Shown: positions 1 to 9,490 of the stretch, piece by piece
How the letters are laid out: each line of letters begins with the position of its first letter
Numbering within the stretch: position 1 is the first letter of the stretch
NCBI RefSeq assembly: GCF_032460525.1
Contig: NZ_CP135963.1
Span: 2,108,001 to 2,172,000, forward strand
Source: Geodermatophilus sp. DSM 44513
Lineage (GTDB): Bacteria > Actinomycetota > Actinomycetes > Mycobacteriales > Geodermatophilaceae
DNA: 64,000 bases
Direction of reading: 5' to 3'
Notes under the pieces: model-generated
Seen by the model: the letters and a program-made list of their open reading frames with translations, nothing else
Database searches by the model: none
Told to the model about the DNA's origin: nothing
Position numbers and translations under genes: made by a program

Positions 1-86
1 ATGCCCCGGCTGGCGCCGGTCACCAGCGCGACCCGGTCGCGCAGCAGGTCACTGCGGCCCAGCCCGCCGTGCGGTGGCGGGCTCAC
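1..86 (-). CDS. SDR family oxidoreductase, N-terminus only (runs off the window edge)
   Basis: Only the first 28 codons are inside the window. After a short polar leader they read DRVALVTGASRG, the TGxxxGxG-type NAD(P)-binding turn that opens Rossmann-fold short-chain dehydrogenases. The GTG start at 86 overlaps the TGA of the LuxC-like gene by 4 nt (GTGA), so it is the fourth gene of the operon that begins at the TPP riboswitch. By family knowledge such enzymes interconvert carbonyls and alcohols with NAD(P)H. The natural guess is reduction of the aldehyde made by the LuxC-like reductase. Substrate and cofactor preference cannot be read from this fragment. Confidence 0.85.
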   Translation of the reverse strand, partial: MSPPPHGGLGRSDLLRDRVALVTGASRG

Positions 87-1615
87 CGCCGTCCGCCGGC
101 GTCCGGAGGGTGCGAGGGCCGGGTCCACTCCGGGTCGTACCGCTCCACCTCGGTCTCCGCGGCGCCCTCGACGTCGGTCCACCGGACCAGGGCGGCGAGG
201 CTGCCCCGGCCGTCGTGGTGCCACCCGGCGGCCGGCTGGGGCATCTGCCCGACGGCGCAGACCCGGTCCACGCCGCACCGGCCGAGCAGCGACGCCCAGG
301 CGTCCAGCCGCTCGGGTGCGCACGCGACGCCGGCGGTCTGCAGGTGGTGGCGCAGCGGCAGCAGCAGCGGGACGACGTCCTCGAGGGCGTCGACCGGGTG
401 CACGCGCACCACCCGGTTCAGCGGTGAGGGCGCGAACCGCTCGGGCCGCTCCTCGACCACCACCGTCCACGCCGTACCCGGGCTGCTGGCGATGACCTGC
501 ACCCCCGGGTCGTCGTAGGAGCGGAGCTCGTACTGGGCGCGGACCGCGGTCACGGCCGCGTCCTCCTCCAGCCTCAGCCGGGCCCGGGGCCGGGCCTGCT
601 CGTAGCGGTCCATCTCCGCGGCCAGGGCCGCGGCGAAGGCCCGTGGGTCGACGGCTCCGCCGCGCTCGACGAACACCACGTGCGGGGACAGGCAGCCCTG
701 CTGGTCGTACTGGGACACGTCGCGGGCGACGCGGCGGGCCGTCTCGGCGTAGCGGGTCAACGCCAGCGCCTCGGAGCCGACGACGGCGAAGCTGACCTTG
801 TGCCCGTAGGGCACGAACGGCACGCCCACCGGCACCCGCCGGGCCAGGCTCTCGGTGGCCCGCAGGCCGGCGGTGGCCGTGACCGCGTCGGAGCGGGCGA
901 AGGCGGCCTGCTCGACGTCCTCGGCCCCGCCGGGCCAGTGGACGACGGCCAGGCACCGTCCCAGCCCCGGGTCCTCCTCGGCGACGGTCTGGGCGAACAG
1001 CACGGGGAACAGCGGCTCGGCGCCGGCGGACTTGCCGAGCGTCGCGGACTTGACGAGGAGGGCGCAGACCAGGTTCCAGGCGGGCAGGCCGGGCACGTTG
1101 CCGGCGAAGACCTGGGTGGTCAGCCGGGGCCCGTAGGCCCGGGAGAGGCCCCCCGCCCGGTTGGGCTGGAAGCCGTCGAGCACCAGCGGGTTGTCGAAGT
1201 CCTGGGCGAGGAAGCGCAGCAGCCGGTCCCGGCGGAAGGTCCTCAGGTGGTCCCTCAACCCGCGGCGGACCATGTCCGGGGCGTACCCGGTGATCCGCGG
1301 CAGCAGCTGCTCGGCGGTGCGGCGCTGTGGCAGGTCGGGGTCGGACCAGCGGGCCACCACGCGGCCCACCGTCTCCAGCACTTCCATCACCGGGCGGTCG
1401 GCCAGCACCTCGGCCTGGGCCCGCAGCAGCCGCTCGCACAGCACCTCGACGAGCGCCGGCGTCACCACCGGCCCGCGCAGCGGCACGTCGCCCACGCGGC
1501 GCGTCGTCCACTCCAGCGCGGCCAGCTCGGCGTCGTCCAGCTGCGGCAGGAAGCAGGCGTCCACCGCCTCGACCGGCTCCGCCCCCTCGAGCGCCCGCGG
1601 GTCCAGCAGGGTCAC
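83..1615 (-). CDS. LuxC-like acyl-CoA/acyl-protein reductase
   Basis: A 510-residue member of the LuxC branch of the aldehyde dehydrogenase superfamily, which reduces an activated acyl thioester to an aldehyde with NADPH. The diagnostic LuxC stretch GNVPGLPAW lies near residues 172-180 and is followed by LLVKSATLGKSA. GHKVSF is near 271-276. The likely catalytic cysteine is C308 in DQQGCLSPH. The GTG start at 1615 overlaps the stop of the LuxE-like gene by 4 nt; a much longer open frame continues upstream but only antisense-like Arg/Pro-rich sequence lies there. Adjacent genes supply acyl activation (upstream) and an SDR (downstream). LuxA/LuxB are absent, so this is not a light-producing system. 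The substrate is unknown; the TPP riboswitch at the operon head suggests a thiamine-related acid (inference). Confidence 0.85.
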   Translation of the reverse strand: MTLLDPRALEGAEPVEAVDACFLPQLDDAELAALEWTTRRVGDVPLRGPVVTPALVEVLCERLLRAQAEVLADRPVMEVLETVGRVVARWSDPDLPQRRTAEQLLPRITGYAPDMVRRGLRDHLRTFRRDRLLRFLAQDFDNPLVLDGFQPNRAGGLSRAYGPRLTTQVFAGNVPGLPAWNLVCALLVKSATLGKSAGAEPLFPVLFAQTVAEEDPGLGRCLAVVHWPGGAEDVEQAAFARSDAVTATAGLRATESLARRVPVGVPFVPYGHKVSFAVVGSEALALTRYAETARRVARDVSQYDQQGCLSPHVVFVERGGAVDPRAFAAALAAEMDRYEQARPRARLRLEEDAAVTAVRAQYELRSYDDPGVQVIASSPGTAWTVVVEERPERFAPSPLNRVVRVHPVDALEDVVPLLLPLRHHLQTAGVACAPERLDAWASLLGRCGVDRVCAVGQMPQPAAGWHHDGRGSLAALVRWTDVEGAAETEVERYDPEWTRPSHPPDAGGRR

Positions 1616-2787
1616 GACCGGCCTCCCTCGTTCGCCGCGAGCAGCTCGTCCAGGGCGAGCGAGCACCCCCGGGCCGCGCTGCCCTGCGCCCGGCCCAGCA
1701 GCACGAACCCGCCTGCCGGGCCGCCCTCCGCGAGGTGACCGACGTCCTCGGCCAGGACGGCCAGGACCGAACCGCGGTTGGCCAGGTCGTGGTGCACCAG
1801 CAACCCGCGCTGCCCCGGCGGCACCGGCCGGCCGGTGCCGGCATCCACCGCCTGCACGCGGGCCCACGGCGGCACGGCCTTGACCCGTGGTGCCGGGTCC
1901 CGCCCGAGCCACGCCCGCCGCAGGGACGTGTCGTAGTACTGGGTGCTGATCTCGGTCATCCCGTAGTAGTTGACGCACCACGCGTCCGGGACGCCCAGCC
2001 GCTGGCCGAGTGCCGTCCGCAGCGCCTCGGCCGGGACCTCCCGGGACCGGCCCTTGAAACCGCCGGTGTCCAGCACCCGGCTGCCGGGCGGCAGCCGGAA
2101 CGCGGTGCCTGCCGCCTCCAGCGCGTCGAGCAGGTGCACGTAGGCGAAGGAGGTCCCCAGCAGCCCCACCGGGACGCCGTCGCGCTCGGCCGCCGCCAGG
2201 GCGGCGAGGAGCCCGTCGAGGTCCAGCCCCTCGGCGCCGACGAAGGTGCCGCTGCCGGCGGCACCGAAGGAGTCGACCAGTCGCTGCAGGAAGTACGCCA
2301 GTGAGGAGTGCGGCTGCTGCTCCGGCGGCGGGTTGAGGACCAGCAGCCGCAACTGCGCCCGGTCCGGCAGGAACCACTGCCGGAAGCCGGTGCGCAGCGA
2401 GGCGTCGTACAGGTGCAGGTGCGGGTGGTGGTTGCGCCCCCGCCGGCCCGGGTCGGTGCTGCCGCTGGTCGTGAACACCGCCGCAGCCTGCTCCGGTGGT
2501 GCGCACGACAGCGTCAGCTCCCGGAAGGCGCTCAGCGGCACCGGCGGGATCTCCCGCCAGCCGCGCACCTGCCCGGGCTCTGCGCCGCGCGCCCGGCAGT
2601 AGCGCCGGTAGGGGCGGTTGCGCTCGTACTGGTCGGCGAACAGGTCCAGTGCGAGCCGGTCGAACTCCGCCTCCTGGGCCTGCGTCGGGCCGCCGTCGTC
2701 CCGGGTCTGCGCCGACGCCTCGATCCAGGCGAGCAGCCGCCGGTCCAGCTCACCGAGCTCGGGGACCGTGGGGGACCGGCCGTTCAC
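1612..2787 (-). CDS. LuxE-like acyl-protein synthetase (acyl-adenylating)
   Basis: A 391-residue protein of the LuxE/PaaK-like branch of the adenylate-forming superfamily. These proteins activate a carboxylic acid with ATP and pass the acyl group to a thiol, feeding a LuxC-type reductase. Visible motifs are the phosphate-binding TTSGSTDPG (about 106-114), TGGFKGRSRE (241-250) and YYGMTEISTQYYD (274-286), all typical of this family. The GTG start at 2787 overlaps the stop of the symporter gene, and its own stop overlaps the LuxC-like start, so the three genes are translationally coupled. The order LuxE-LuxC-SDR gives a complete acid to aldehyde to alcohol route. The acid cannot be read from the sequence. 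A long-chain fatty acid is the default for the family; a thiamine-related acid is suggested by the riboswitch. Confidence 0.85.
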   Translation of the reverse strand: MNGRSPTVPELGELDRRLLAWIEASAQTRDDGGPTQAQEAEFDRLALDLFADQYERNRPYRRYCRARGAEPGQVRGWREIPPVPLSAFRELTLSCAPPEQAAAVFTTSGSTDPGRRGRNHHPHLHLYDASLRTGFRQWFLPDRAQLRLLVLNPPPEQQPHSSLAYFLQRLVDSFGAAGSGTFVGAEGLDLDGLLAALAAAERDGVPVGLLGTSFAYVHLLDALEAAGTAFRLPPGSRVLDTGGFKGRSREVPAEALRTALGQRLGVPDAWCVNYYGMTEISTQYYDTSLRRAWLGRDPAPRVKAVPPWARVQAVDAGTGRPVPPGQRGLLVHHDLANRGSVLAVLAEDVGHLAEGGPAGGFVLLGRAQGSAARGCSLALDELLAANEGGRS

Positions 2788-4223
2788 CGGGCCACCCGCT
2801 CGTCCACGGGCCCGTCCAGCGGCCGGACCCGGCGCGGGAGTTCCCGCAGGTCGGTGCTGCGCCGGCCGAGGAGGGAGACCAGCACCGTCACCGCGGTGGA
2901 CGCCGCCAGGGCCGCGGCGAAGGGCGGCAGCGACAGGCCGTCGGCGAACGTGGCGACGTCGACCGCGGCGGCGAGGGACCCGCCGGCGACCAGACCGTGC
3001 GCCAGGGCGCCGAGGAGGCCGGCCACGGCTCCGGCGACCGCGGCGGCCGGGGTGGTGCGGCGCCACAGCCCGAGGAAGGCCGGCGCGATCGTCGCCGCGC
3101 ACAGCAGGTCGGCGACCAGGAACAGCCGGAGCACCGAGATTCCCTGGAAGGCCACGAGTGCCGGCACCACGGTGAGCAGCACCACGAGCAGCCGGGCGCC
3201 GCGCAGCCCCCACCGCGGCGCCTCGGTGACCACGGCCGCGGCGAGACCGCCCTGCAGCGTGTCGACGGTGGAGGTCACCAGGGCCACCGTGAAGACCAGG
3301 ACGACGACCAGCACCCACTGCTCGGCCCCGGCCAGCAGCGCGAAGAAGGGCACCGGCGGGTTGCCGAGGTCCACCGCCGAGGCCGCGGCCAGCAGGCCGA
3401 CCACCCCCGCGGGCAGCACCACGAGGACGCGCATCGCGGCACCCAGCAGCGCCCCGCGGGTCAGGGCCCGCTCGTCGCGCGCGGACCACACCCGCTGCCA
3501 GTAACCGTTGTGGAACAGGCTGGTGGCCAGGACGGCGACGACCAGGGTAGCCGCCCCCTCCAGCCCCGCGCCGTCGACGGCGAGCAGCCGCCCGGCGTCC
3601 TGGGGCCCCGAGTCCGGCAGCGCGCGGACGACGGCGATACCGACCACGCCGAGCAGCAGCAGGAGCAGCCAGCCCTGCCACGCGTCGGTGCGGATGGAGG
3701 CCCGCAGTCCCCCGTGGGCGGTGTACAGCGTGGTGACCGCGGCGACGGCGACCACGCCCACCCGCGGGTCCAGGCCGGACAGGCGCCCCAGCACCGCCCC
3801 GATGGCGGTCAACTCCGCGGCCAGCGCGACGAGCATGTACCCCAGGGAGATGCCCAGCACGTACGCGTGCATGACGCGTCCGAGGCGCAGCCGCACGAAC
3901 TCCACGAGGTTGTGCCCGCGGGGGAGCAGCGCCCGCAGGCGGCGGCCGAGCAGCACCAGCGCCAGCAGGGGCAGGGTGATGGCCACCGCGTAGCCCACCA
4001 CTCCAGCCAGGCCCACCGAGGCGCCCACCTCCGGCGGCGCGAACAACACCCACGCGCCGACGCCGGAGGCGAAGAAGGACAGCCCGAGGGCGCCGCCGCC
4101 CTGGGTGCCCCGGGCGACGGCGAACTCCTCCAGGTCCCGGTCGCGGCCGACCCCGAGGCCCACGCCGGCGAACAACAGCAGCACGGCGGCCACGGCCACC
4201 GCGGTCAGGGCGGTGCCCACCAC
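2784..4223 (-). CDS. sodium:solute symporter family transporter, TPP-riboswitch controlled
   Basis: A 479-residue polytopic protein with about 13 hydrophobic segments, resembling the SSS family (sodium-coupled uptake of vitamins, sugars and carboxylates). An ATG at 4244 lies inside the conserved GGGTAATGCC of the THI box and has no ribosome-binding site, so I reject it as the start. The GTG at 4221-4223 follows GGAGGG (4231-4236) at 7 nt and is preferred. SSS members under THI boxes have been proposed in comparative-genomics work as HMP/thiamine-precursor transporters (ThiV); that name would fit but I cannot prove orthology. It is the first gene of a four-gene overlapped operon, which suggests that it imports the substrate of the LuxE/LuxC/SDR enzymes. 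Confidence 0.85.
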   Translation of the reverse strand: MVGTALTAVAVAAVLLLFAGVGLGVGRDRDLEEFAVARGTQGGGALGLSFFASGVGAWVLFAPPEVGASVGLAGVVGYAVAITLPLLALVLLGRRLRALLPRGHNLVEFVRLRLGRVMHAYVLGISLGYMLVALAAELTAIGAVLGRLSGLDPRVGVVAVAAVTTLYTAHGGLRASIRTDAWQGWLLLLLLGVVGIAVVRALPDSGPQDAGRLLAVDGAGLEGAATLVVAVLATSLFHNGYWQRVWSARDERALTRGALLGAAMRVLVVLPAGVVGLLAAASAVDLGNPPVPFFALLAGAEQWVLVVVLVFTVALVTSTVDTLQGGLAAAVVTEAPRWGLRGARLLVVLLTVVPALVAFQGISVLRLFLVADLLCAATIAPAFLGLWRRTTPAAAVAGAVAGLLGALAHGLVAGGSLAAAVDVATFADGLSLPPFAAALAASTAVTVLVSLLGRRSTDLRELPRRVRPLDGPVDERVAR

Positions 4224-4227
4224 GTCG

Positions 4228-4327
4228 AGTCCCTCCGCCGGCATTACCCGGTCAGGTTCCTGCGGTCGGCGACGCGTCCAGCCGCCCTCTCAGCCCGGTC
4301 CGCCCGAGCTCCCGTGTCTGCAGGACT
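4228..4327 (-). promoter_or_regulatory. TPP (THI-box) riboswitch
   Basis: Read on the minus strand, the leader contains ACGGGAGC, then GGGCTGAGAGGG, then GAACCTGACCGGGTAATGCC followed by GGCGGAGGGACT. These match the conserved cores of thiamine pyrophosphate riboswitches. The outer P1 helix can form between AGTCCT (4322-4327) and GGGACT (4228-4233). The 3' strand of P1 contains part of the GGAGGG ribosome-binding site of the symporter gene. Ligand-stabilised P1 would therefore hide the RBS, which implies repression of translation by TPP. The ligand class is established for this motif; the mechanism here is inferred from the overlap. Confidence 0.92.
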
Positions 4328-4400: not shown

Positions 4401-4690
4401 TCACCACGCGGGGGAGGGGAGCCACCCGCCGGCGGCGGCGCGGAAGTGCTCCGGGGGCAGCCGGCCGGCTCCGGCCGGGACCGACCCGAGCAGCGGGACG
4501 CCCACCCGTGGCAGGTCCGCGAGGTTGCAGCGCTCGGCCATGCCCGGCTCGGCCGGCCAGGATCCGACGACCAGGCCGGCGGGTTCCAGGCCGCGGGCGC
4601 GCAGCGCCTCGACGGTCAGTCCGGTGTGGTTCAGCGTGCCGAGCCCGGCAGCCACCACGACACCGGATGGGGTCTGGCCGTGTCGTCGCT
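4401..4690 (-). pseudogene. bioD: dethiobiotin synthetase remnant (C-terminal third)
   Basis: The reading frame VVAAGLGTLNHTGLTVEALR followed by GLEPAGLVVGSW is the characteristic C-terminal part of BioD, the ATP-dependent dethiobiotin synthetase of biotin synthesis. Only about 90 of the usual 220-240 residues remain. In-frame sequence upstream meets a TAG near 4690 and the N-terminal P-loop (GTDTxVGKT) is absent. It sits directly upstream of the TPP riboswitch on the same strand, with no other biotin genes nearby. I read it as a decayed fragment. A small expressed protein is possible but would lack the nucleotide-binding site. Confidence 0.7.
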
Positions 4691-7280: not shown

Positions 7281-7324
7281 TGCGAGGCTGGATGTCCCGC
7301 GATCGCCCCCGGTCCGGGCACTGA
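7280..7324 (+). CDS. 14-residue leader ORF coupled to the permease gene
   Basis: ATG at 7280 opens MRGWMSRDRPRSGH and its TGA overlaps the ATG of the permease gene as TGATG. The permease ATG has no visible Shine-Dalgarno sequence of its own, so coupling through this short frame is plausible. The ATG sits at the last base of the iron box, so a transcript starting there would be nearly leaderless. The evidence is positional only; the peptide has no recognised similarity. Confidence 0.3.
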   Translation: MRGWMSRDRPRSGH

Positions 7325-8391
7325 TGGCGGTGCTCGTCGCCCGCCCGGCGGCCGTGCGCCCGGACGGGGGGGACCGCCGCCGCGGGCTCCTCTGCCGCGC
7401 GGGCTCCCGTGCGGGGGGCCTGGTGCTGTTGCTGGTGCTGCTGCTGGGCGTGTGTCTGCTCAGCCTGCGGGTCGGCTCGGTGGAGCTGTCCGCGCAGACG
7501 GTGTGGCGGGCGTTCACCGATTTCGATGGCTCCAACGAGCACCTGATCGTCACCTCGCTGCGGCTGCCGCGCACGCTGATCGGCCTCGGCGTCGGGGCGG
7601 CGCTGGCGGTGGCCGGCGCGGTCATGCAGGCGGTCACCCGCAACCCGCTGGCCGGGCCGGACATCCTGGGTGTCAACGCCGGCGCCGCCTTCGCCATCGT
7701 GACCGCGGTCTTCCTGCTCGGCGTGGTGAGCCCGTCGATGTACGTGTGGTTCGCCTTCGCCGGGGCGGCGGTCACCACGGTGCTGGTGTACGGCATCGGC
7801 TCGGTGGGGCGGACCGGCCCGAGCCCGGTCAAGCTGGCGCTGGCCGGCGTCGTGGTGACCTCGCTGCTGGGCTCCTGGACGTCGGGGGTGCTGGTTTTCA
7901 ACGAGCGGACCCTCGACGAGGTGCGGTTCTGGCTGGCCGGGTCGCTGGCGGGGCGCGACCTGGGGGTGTTCTGGCAGGTCAGTCCGTTCCTGGTCGGCGG
8001 TACGGTGGTCGGGCTGCTGCTGACCCGGCAGCTCAACGCGCTCGCCCTGGGCGAGGACGTGTCCCGCTCGCTGGGCCAGCGGACGGCGCTGGTGCGGGCC
8101 GGTTGCGCCGTCCTGGTGGTGCTGCTGGCCGGGGGCGCGGTGGCCGCGGCCGGGCCGATCGGCTTCGTCGGCCTGGCGGTGCCGCACGTCGCCCGCGCGC
8201 TGGTCGGACCCGACCACCGCTGGCTGGTGCCCTACGCGGCCGTGCTCGGCCCCGTGCTGCTCATCGCCGCCGACGTCGTCGGCCGCGTCGTGGCCCGCCC
8301 CGCGGAGCTGCAGGCCGGGATCGTCACCGCGATCGTCGGCGCCCCGTTCCGCATCCATCTCGCCCGCCGGCGCAAGCTGGCCGGCCTGTAG
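7324..8391 (+). CDS. FecCD-type iron-siderophore ABC permease 1
   Basis: A 355-residue integral membrane permease with about 9-10 hydrophobic segments. Family landmarks include SLRLPRTLIGLGVGAALAVA (about 78-97), MQAVTRNPLAGPDILGVNAG (101-120) and AAAGPIGFVGLAVPHVARALVG toward the C-terminus, which holds the loop that contacts the ATPase. Family members form the channel for ferric-siderophore or vitamin B12 uptake. It is the first full gene of the island after the iron box and is followed after 13 nt by a second, different FecCD permease, so the pair probably makes a heterodimer as in FepD/FepG. The Arg-rich N-terminal 35 residues are cytoplasmic. The exact siderophore is unknown. Confidence 0.93.
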   Translation: MAVLVARPAAVRPDGGDRRRGLLCRAGSRAGGLVLLLVLLLGVCLLSLRVGSVELSAQTVWRAFTDFDGSNEHLIVTSLRLPRTLIGLGVGAALAVAGAVMQAVTRNPLAGPDILGVNAGAAFAIVTAVFLLGVVSPSMYVWFAFAGAAVTTVLVYGIGSVGRTGPSPVKLALAGVVVTSLLGSWTSGVLVFNERTLDEVRFWLAGSLAGRDLGVFWQVSPFLVGGTVVGLLLTRQLNALALGEDVSRSLGQRTALVRAGCAVLVVLLAGGAVAAAGPIGFVGLAVPHVARALVGPDHRWLVPYAAVLGPVLLIAADVVGRVVARPAELQAGIVTAIVGAPFRIHLARRRKLAGL

Positions 8392-8404
8392 CGGACGCCG
8401 CCCC

Positions 8405-9490
8405 GTGGCCACCCCACCCGTCGAGCACGCCCGGCCGCGGCCGGACGCCGGACCTCGCCGGCTGACCGTCCGCAGCCGGCGGGTGCCGGTGTCGGCGCGG
8501 CTGAGCGTGCGCACCGCGGCCCTCGGCGCGGTCGTCGCCGCGCTGGCCCTGGCGGCGGCGGCCTGGACGATGACGCTGGGGGAGTTCCCGGTACCGCTGT
8601 CGGACGTGCTGGCCAGCACGTTCGGCGTCGGCACCGCCGACCCGGCGCACGACTTCGTCGTCCGCACGCTGCGCCTGCCGCGGGTGCTGGCGGCGCTGCT
8701 GGCCGGCGCTGCGCTGGCCGCGAGCGGGGCGGTGTTCCAGGGGCTGGTGCGCAACCCGCTGGTCGCCCCGGACGTCATCGGGGTCAACGCCGGCGCCTCG
8801 CTGGTGGCCGTCTACCTGATCGTGGTCACCGGCTCGGCGCTGCTGCTGCCGGCCGGGGCGTTCGCCGGCGCGCTGGTCACCGCGTTCGCCGTGTACGCCT
8901 TCACCTGGCGCCGGGGCATCAGCGGCAGCCGGCTGGTGCTGGTGGGCATCGGCGTCAACGCGGTGCTGGGCAGCCTGACCACCCTGATCCTGGTCCGCTA
9001 CCCGGTCGAGGAGATCGCCCCGGCGGTGCTGTGGACCACCGGCACCCTCTACGGCGCCGACTGGCGCGACGTCACGGTGCTGGTGGTCGGGCTGGGCGTG
9101 CTGCTGCCCCCGGCCTTCTGGCTCACCCGCCACCTCACCGCGCTGCAGCTGGGCGACGACACCGCGCGCAGCCTCGGCGTGCGCGCCGAGCCGGCCCGGG
9201 CGGCGCTGATCACCGTCGGAGCCGGCCTGGCGGCGACCGCGGTGGCGGTCGCGGGGCCCATCGGCTTCGTCGCCCTCATCGCCCCGCACATCGCCCGCAT
9301 GCTCGCCGGCCCGCTCACCGGCGGGGTGCTGCTGCTCTCCGCGTCTGTCGGTGCGCTGCTGCTCGCCGCCTCCGACCTGGTCGCCCAGCACGCCTTCGCC
9401 GCCGTCAGCCTGCCGGCCGGGCTGGTCACCGCCGCCGTCGGCGCCCCGTACTTCCTGTTCCTGCTGTACCGCAGCAACCGACTCAGCTGA
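8405..9490 (+). CDS. FecCD-type iron-siderophore ABC permease 2
   Basis: A 361-residue permease of the same family as the preceding gene but only moderately similar to it. Landmarks are LRLPRVLAALLAGAALAASG, FQGLVRNPLVAPDVIGVNAG and AVAGPIGFVALIAPHIARML, where the last is the ATPase-coupling loop. GTG at 8405 gives about 35 basic N-terminal residues before the first membrane segment. It is the FepG-like partner of the preceding permease. Both are followed by a binding lipoprotein and an ATPase, giving a complete ABC importer in four consecutive genes. Iron repression via the upstream box would apply to the whole unit. Confidence 0.93.
   Translation: MATPPVEHARPRPDAGPRRLTVRSRRVPVSARLSVRTAALGAVVAALALAAAAWTMTLGEFPVPLSDVLASTFGVGTADPAHDFVVRTLRLPRVLAALLAGAALAASGAVFQGLVRNPLVAPDVIGVNAGASLVAVYLIVVTGSALLLPAGAFAGALVTAFAVYAFTWRRGISGSRLVLVGIGVNAVLGSLTTLILVRYPVEEIAPAVLWTTGTLYGADWRDVTVLVVGLGVLLPPAFWLTRHLTALQLGDDTARSLGVRAEPARAALITVGAGLAATAVAVAGPIGFVALIAPHIARMLAGPLTGGVLLLSASVGALLLAASDLVAQHAFAAVSLPAGLVTAAVGAPYFLFLLYRSNRLS

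Follow-up and report, generated by a model that had tools for sequence, protein, structure and literature searches.

What is a vitamin-responsive riboswitch doing in front of genes related to luxE and luxC of luminous bacteria? This question is raised by a four-gene operon at the beginning of a stretch of 64,000 nucleotides from the one-contig genome of Geodermatophilus sp. DSM 44513 (NZ_CP135963.1; G000:C1:2108001-2172000 in our set, where G and L handles denote genomes and loci), which is called the window in the following. Behind a thiamine pyrophosphate (TPP) riboswitch, the operon encodes an SSS-family symporter, LuxE-like and LuxC-like proteins and a short-chain dehydrogenase/reductase (SDR) (Table 1). 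Based on sequence comparisons, we consider it probable that the operon is repressed by TPP and recovers a carboxylated vitamer of vitamin B1 by reduction, with a pyrimidine acid as the likeliest substrate.

A TPP riboswitch precedes a LuxE-LuxC-SDR operon

The THI-box riboswitch proposed in the first-pass annotation, which was made from the sequence alone, matched the covariance model RF00059 with 44.5 bits, corresponding to E-values of 1.2e-7 for a 401-base stretch and 3.1e-7 for the whole 4.6-Mb genome, in which five TPP elements were found in total. The score is under the Rfam gathering score of 54.3, which is why a default scan of the window does not list the element, yet it lies far beyond chance expectation. 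In the six further actinobacterial carriers of the operon, the linked TPP elements scored between 43.8 and 51.7 bits. The core letters of the aptamer arms, GGGCTGAGAGGG and GAACCTGA-CCGGGTAATGCCGGCGGAGGGA, which we take to be the TPP-contacting parts of the THI element, are all found in the element of the operon. The annotation had further placed the ribosome-binding site inside helix P1. A ribosome-binding GGAGGG (4236-4231) is indeed part of the aptamer, at its conserved 3' edge. The helix as such, however, is a weak one: several non-standard pairs are marked in P1 in the Rfam alignment, it is not formed in minimum-energy folds, and a candidate AGUCC/GGACU pairing is, as judged by eye, disrupted in L012.

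The gene order was confirmed, with three 4-nt GTGA overlaps joining the four genes. The fourth gene is real, with its first 86 nt inside the window and the remainder outside (L006:9283-10086; G000:C1:2107283-2108086). Beyond it, the first long frame in which a gene can be recognised lies on the opposite strand (L006:7810-8706, +). The symporter probably starts at GTG 4223 and not at ATG 4244 inside the aptamer, which was chosen by the open reading frame finder; L013 has an ATG at the position matching this GTG. The symporter scores under the cut-offs for both TIGR00813 and TIGR02119 (PanF); we presume that it imports the substrate of the operon.

Table 1. Riboswitch and genes of the operon in the window.
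Feature	Position	Strand	Model match
TPP riboswitch (THI element)	4213..4325	-	RF00059, 44.5 bits
SSS-family sodium:solute symporter, GTG start	2784..4223	-	PF00474, E 9.4e-9
LuxE-like acyl-adenylating acyl-protein synthetase, relay Cys375	1612..2787	-	PF04443, E 1.6e-16
LuxC-like acyl-thioester reductase, Cys308	83..1615	-	PF05893, E 1.2e-91
SDR gene, first 86 nt	1..86	-	PF13561 (adh_short_C2), E 2e-56 (whole protein)

The relay cysteines and the SDR active site are conserved. Cys308 of the LuxC-like reductase, already pointed out in the first-pass annotation, is unchanged in 14/14 aligned relatives. Its counterpart in the luminescent LuxC of 7xc6 (alignment E 4.2e-20), the one LuxC-LuxE entry returned by the PDB sequence search, is the cysteine of YDQQAC. 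Likewise, Cys375 of the LuxE-like protein is unchanged in 14/14 relatives, and the alignment with the LuxE of 7xc6 (E 1.1e-10) includes the GCS(L) cysteine. In the SDR, which may act as an aldehyde reductase, the active-site motif shows Tyr and Lys in 13/13 aligned copies, with Ser or Thr in the third place.

The operon thus shares with the luminous LuxE-LuxC pair of 7xc6 the Pfam families, the adjacency of the two genes and both relay cysteines. In contrast to the luminous pair, it adds an SDR, a transporter and a TPP riboswitch, its LuxC belongs to a clade separate from 13 distant LuxC control rows (support 94/98), and both proteins stay below the NCBIfam luminescence equivalogs (LuxC 90.4 bits against a cut-off of 750, LuxE 51.1 against 550). 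No luciferase is named in the annotated stretches of the relatives, although no search aimed at luciferase (luxAB) was made.

The riboswitch linkage is conserved across three phyla

A same-strand TPP riboswitch was found upstream of the LuxE-LuxC pair in all 23 near-clade loci examined, which span Actinomycetota, Bacilli and Alpha- and Gammaproteobacteria and thereby three phyla. These loci comprise seven actinobacterial genomes and 16 of the 27 nearer plasmid records, the other 11 (Azospirillum and Pantoea dispersa) standing outside the count. Among the plasmid loci, 15/16 riboswitches score above the gathering score, and that of Priestia reaches 49.0 bits.

By comparison, none of 16 controls with a distant LuxC showed a linked TPP riboswitch. 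Fourteen of these controls were drawn from the 36 genomes in which a distant LuxC was matched and were scanned in full with RF00059; the other two are the plasmid loci L092 and L093. All 14 genomes have TPP elements, none of them on the LuxC contig (which in G729 is short, at 6.3 kb) except in G792, where the element is 16 kb off and on the other strand; in L092 and L093, no TPP element over the cut-off occurs within 6 kb of the distant LuxC. The difference (23/23 versus 0/16) gives a Fisher p of 2.7e-11, a value that overstates the significance because the loci are related: L057 and L060 share proteins, and L088-L090 are almost alike. The first-pass annotation had named, beforehand, homologous operons without THI-box linkage as the finding that would speak against it; the linkage was present at every near locus. 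A chance pairing of riboswitch and genes is ruled out by these counts.

In a tree of LuxC sequences, 14 riboswitch-linked rows together with ten of unknown context grouped apart from 13 controls, with the above support of 94/98 being slightly below the star of the program; the tree lacks G824 from among the 14 control genomes, and two of its control rows represent fragments.

We also considered whether the switch serves the transporter only, an idea that was dropped since LuxE is the first gene in 15/23 loci (Azospirillum, Priestia, Pantoea, Pseudomonas, G104 and G284). LuxE standing first behind the riboswitch indicates that the switch controls the enzymes themselves.

Transporters are exchanged between lineages

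LuxE and LuxC are adjacent in 23/23 loci, and the SDR follows in 22/23, either directly or past ABC transporter genes; the contig of G284 stops earlier. The transporter type, on the other hand, swaps between lineages, with SSS in five, NCS2 in four and ABC in six loci (15/23). An SSS gene leads the operon in G000, G044, G002, G004 and G085. NCS2 carriers, which transport nucleobase-sized substrates, lead in L057, L060 and L058 and trail in G104. Genes for an ABC ATPase, permease and binding protein are inserted between LuxC and SDR in L055, L059, L063, L086, L087 and L091. Three of these six binding proteins were tested, and all three are NMT1/THI5-like, with PDB relatives that include the formylaminopyrimidine (FAMP)-binding protein 3ix1 and yeast THI5/THI13; within the PDB, the Priestia protein is closest to 4nmy, an NMT1-like thiamine binder. 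At seven loci, six of Pantoea and one of Pseudomonas, none of the queried kinds (SSS, NCS2, ABC) stands beside the trio of LuxE, LuxC and SDR. In Niallia, two tandem riboswitches are followed by ThiW (TIGR02359, 175 bits, over the cut-off) and NCS2 and then by the trio.

Proposed pathway and substrate

Since the enzymes, and not an importer alone, are linked to TPP control across phyla, the most likely role of their product is to feed, or else to spare, TPP. Together, LuxE and LuxC imply the conversion of an acid to an aldehyde, and the SDR that of the aldehyde to an alcohol. At low TPP, the riboswitch would free the ribosome-binding site, and the symporter would take up a small carboxylic acid that originates from vitamin B1. 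The LuxE-like protein would then use ATP to convert the acid via acyl-AMP to an acyl group on Cys375, which would move to Cys308 of LuxC, where NAD(P)H would serve to reduce it to the aldehyde. Finally, the SDR would form the alcohol, which would feed thiamine synthesis. Here, we infer the direction of the reactions, the repression by TPP and the identity of the vitamer. The uptake and two-step reduction of an acid under TPP control, as proposed in the first-pass annotation, gain from the linkage of the riboswitch, while the substrate is still a matter of deduction.

The alcohol groups of hydroxymethylpyrimidine (HMP), hydroxyethylthiazole (HET) and thiamine are all candidate products. The likeliest acid would be 4-amino-2-methylpyrimidine-5-carboxylate, yielding HMP for ThiD. 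According to Neal and Pearson, this pyrimidine acid is reportedly a thiamine metabolite in the rat. ThiV, an SSS protein under a TPP riboswitch, is given as the likely HMP transporter of SAR11 in PMC11452348. The importers of nucleobase-type NCS2, pyrimidine-binding NMT1/THI5 type and SSS type as in ThiV favour a pyrimidine, and with it the carboxylated HMP that the first-pass annotation had listed as one option. We tentatively assign the pyrimidine acid as substrate, at somewhat less than even chance. The combined proposal that the LuxE-LuxC relay and SDR form a plasmid-spread B1 salvage route over three phyla, leading from the pyrimidine acid to HMP, is put forward with similar reserve.

Thiamine genes of the carriers

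The genome of the window strain lacks ThiC and has two full ThiG, ThiM and two TenA-family genes in tandem. It further contains two CytX-like predicted HMP importers under TPP elements, which score below the equivalog cut-off. These TPP-preceded CytX-like genes (L007 and L008; G000:C1:4094000-4106000 and 76000-87000) are each located near a full ThiG, and the tandem TenA-family pair adjoins that of L008. Two divergent TPP elements were observed near 4572000 of the same contig (L009:4926-5939, -, and L009:6166-6954, +). One is directed towards ThiM and its partner towards a zinc alcohol dehydrogenase (ADH_N/ADH_zinc_N), which may be a second thiamine-linked alcohol/aldehyde enzyme.

Among the other carriers, G002 (draft, 99% complete) has no ThiC, one full ThiG, a TenA pair and a ThiM match of only 24.1 bits (cut-off 27). 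ThiC is also absent from G004, which has ThiG and ThiM; G044 and G085 have all three, G104 has a partial ThiC with ThiG and ThiM, and G284 (89% complete) has ThiM without ThiC or a full ThiG. Overall, ThiM is over the cut-off in 6/7 actinobacterial carriers and the thiamine kinase ThiK in 0/7. The sole match to a thiamine pyrophosphokinase (TPK) domain in G000 is a SteA-like protein; five further carriers show TPK-domain matches that are just as partial, and G085 has none.

Weighing the pyrimidine acid against other substrates

Several findings weigh against salvage of a pyrimidine acid. Eight of the 23 loci are without a recognised adjoining transporter (seven) or end too early to tell (G284). 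The two CytX-like genes of the window genome suggest that HMP is probably obtainable otherwise. ThiC is rare in the family (10/112 genomes), and within it is commoner in carriers of the operon (3/6) than in the other genomes (7/106; Fisher p 0.009). Three operon-bearing Pantoea plasmids also encode a full ThiG. In Niallia, the trio is accompanied by ThiW, a predicted importer of thiazole, and this speaks for a thiazole acid at that locus. The idea of the operon as a plain replacement for ThiC was dropped, as it is contradicted by the ThiC enrichment among the family's carriers.

The same salvage could act on whole thiamine acetic acid, oxidised at the thiazole side chain, and return thiamine, which was the main example of the first-pass annotation and which we regard as possible yet rather unlikely. 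Amos and Neal 1970 (cited in PMC7575681) reportedly isolated thiamine acetic acid together with FAMP as rat thiamine metabolites, and the salvage of FAMP by microbes is described in PMC10470507. A pool of this kind may therefore exist. NMT1-like binding proteins, moreover, include thiamine binders such as 4nmy, to which the Priestia protein is closest. The compound is nevertheless less favoured because a recognised thiamine kinase was not found in the seven carriers, with no ThiK over the cut-off and TPK-domain matches that are SteA-like, partial or missing, although cleavage of thiamine by TenA could still provide a route. The NCS2 carriers, with their nucleobase-sized substrates, also argue against it. 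Quite unlikely, in our view, is 4-methylthiazole-5-acetic acid, which would give HET for ThiM. It is reportedly a rat thiamine metabolite (work cited in PMC11681303), ThiM is widespread among the carriers, and ThiW precedes the trio under two tandem riboswitches in Niallia. On the other side, HET as the product is disfavoured by G002, which has ThiG but no ThiM over the cut-off, 6/7 actinobacterial carriers produce their own thiazole (ThiG), and the transporters are mostly of the nucleobase or NMT1/THI5 type.

The acid might not be a vitamer at all. B12 switches control B12-free isozymes, and in parallel the operon could be a TPP-independent back-up that replaces the aldehyde or alcohol product of a TPP-dependent enzyme when TPP is short. 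From what is known of their families, LuxE and LuxC form aldehydes without TPP, and the seven loci lacking an adjoining transporter would agree with such a role; given that vitamer-type transporters recur at 15/23 loci, ThiW among them, we hold it to be very improbable. Hardly credible is a lux-like fatty-acid reductase operon that acquired its TPP switch by chance or via the transporter only. The Pfam families and the annotations 'acyl-CoA reductase' and 'long-chain fatty acid--CoA ligase' are in line with it, whereas the scores far under the luminescence equivalogs, the complete linkage over phyla and the position of the switch directly before the enzymes where LuxE comes first all speak against it.

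Relation to known systems

TPP-controlled salvage of a pyrimidine acid would join the FAMP/ThiXYZ-TenA-YlmB, ThiW-ThiM, CytX and ThiV systems, with which the operon shares a TPP riboswitch, precursor-type importers (SSS, NMT1-like ABC, ThiW) and enzymes with a presumed role in repairing a damaged vitamer. Unlike these systems, the operon has an acid activation and reduction by LuxE, LuxC and SDR. Carboxylic acid reductase with an alcohol dehydrogenase follows the same course from acid via aldehyde to alcohol, but the operon has a split LuxE and LuxC relay instead of one protein. The carboxyl group of carboxythiazole is not known to require reduction.

Among the papers listed in our literature search, no title linked LuxE/LuxC with a TPP riboswitch or thiamine. 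In the main text of a survey of TPP regulons in 255 genomes (PMC3766115), LuxE and thiW have no occurrences, and PMC5899164 describes carboxythiazole as a B1 precursor. In this literature, the chemistry of the proposed TPP-controlled salvage operon was not found described for thiamine.

Distribution and genomic surroundings

The LuxC of the window is 82-88% identical to LuxC of Geodermatophilus, Blastococcus and Modestobacter records. A protein search gave 1962 LuxC relatives among 8000 scored candidates; the 120 matches listed include Actinomycetota, Paenibacillus, Ammoniphilus, Chloroflexota, Tectomicrobia, TA06 and Brevibacterium. The near form is patchy, occurring in 6/112 genomes of the family. 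In a sample of the phylum (396 genomes), it was found only in G000 and G284 (72%), with the other seven LuxC matches being partial or distant at 41% or less, and in a sample of the class (394 genomes) only in G000, beside 33 distant matches. On plasmids, 51 records match LuxC, at least 27 of them at 38.7-48.0% identity (among the 40 matches listed), with Azospirillum, Pantoea, Niallia, Lactiplantibacillus, Levilactobacillus, Priestia and Pseudomonas as hosts. A scan of viral contigs with the LuxC alignment gave no relative.

The NCS2-bearing modules L057 and L060 are carried by plasmids (10-21 kb) found in Lactiplantibacillus plantarum and Levilactobacillus brevis, and their shared protein accessions suggest a recent transfer. 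On plasmid p1 of Pseudomonas silvicola (L061), LuxE, LuxC and SDR each match in two pieces behind a riboswitch of 63.8 bits, which points either to a decayed operon copy or to sequence errors.

In the window genome, an 85-aa frame just upstream of the riboswitch (window 4401-4658, -) resembles the C-terminal end of the dethiobiotin synthetase BioD; with 24.6 bits for AAA_26 (Pfam cut-off 27), it is perhaps a gene remnant. The operon is flanked by genes of an apparent iron-siderophore island. These encode Peripla_BP_2, a pyridoxal phosphate (PLP) decarboxylase, a PALP-rhodanese fusion, a class V aminotransferase and an ATP-grasp protein on one side (L006:108-6743) and, judged by eye, two frames resembling FecCD permeases on the other (window 7324-9490).

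Implications

The proposed salvage would give a testable function to proteins that carry the above labels of acyl-CoA reductase and fatty acid-CoA ligase, in an operon compact enough to fit on small plasmids of Lactobacillaceae. If the proposal is true, oxidised thiamine acids, so far regarded as excretion products, would be recoverable vitamin B1 for bacteria, and the pyrimidine acid would be a vitamer traded in nature. The LuxE/LuxC pair known from bioluminescence would also serve cofactor repair, and the route would undo the oxidative degradation that vitamin B1 undergoes in animals and microbes.

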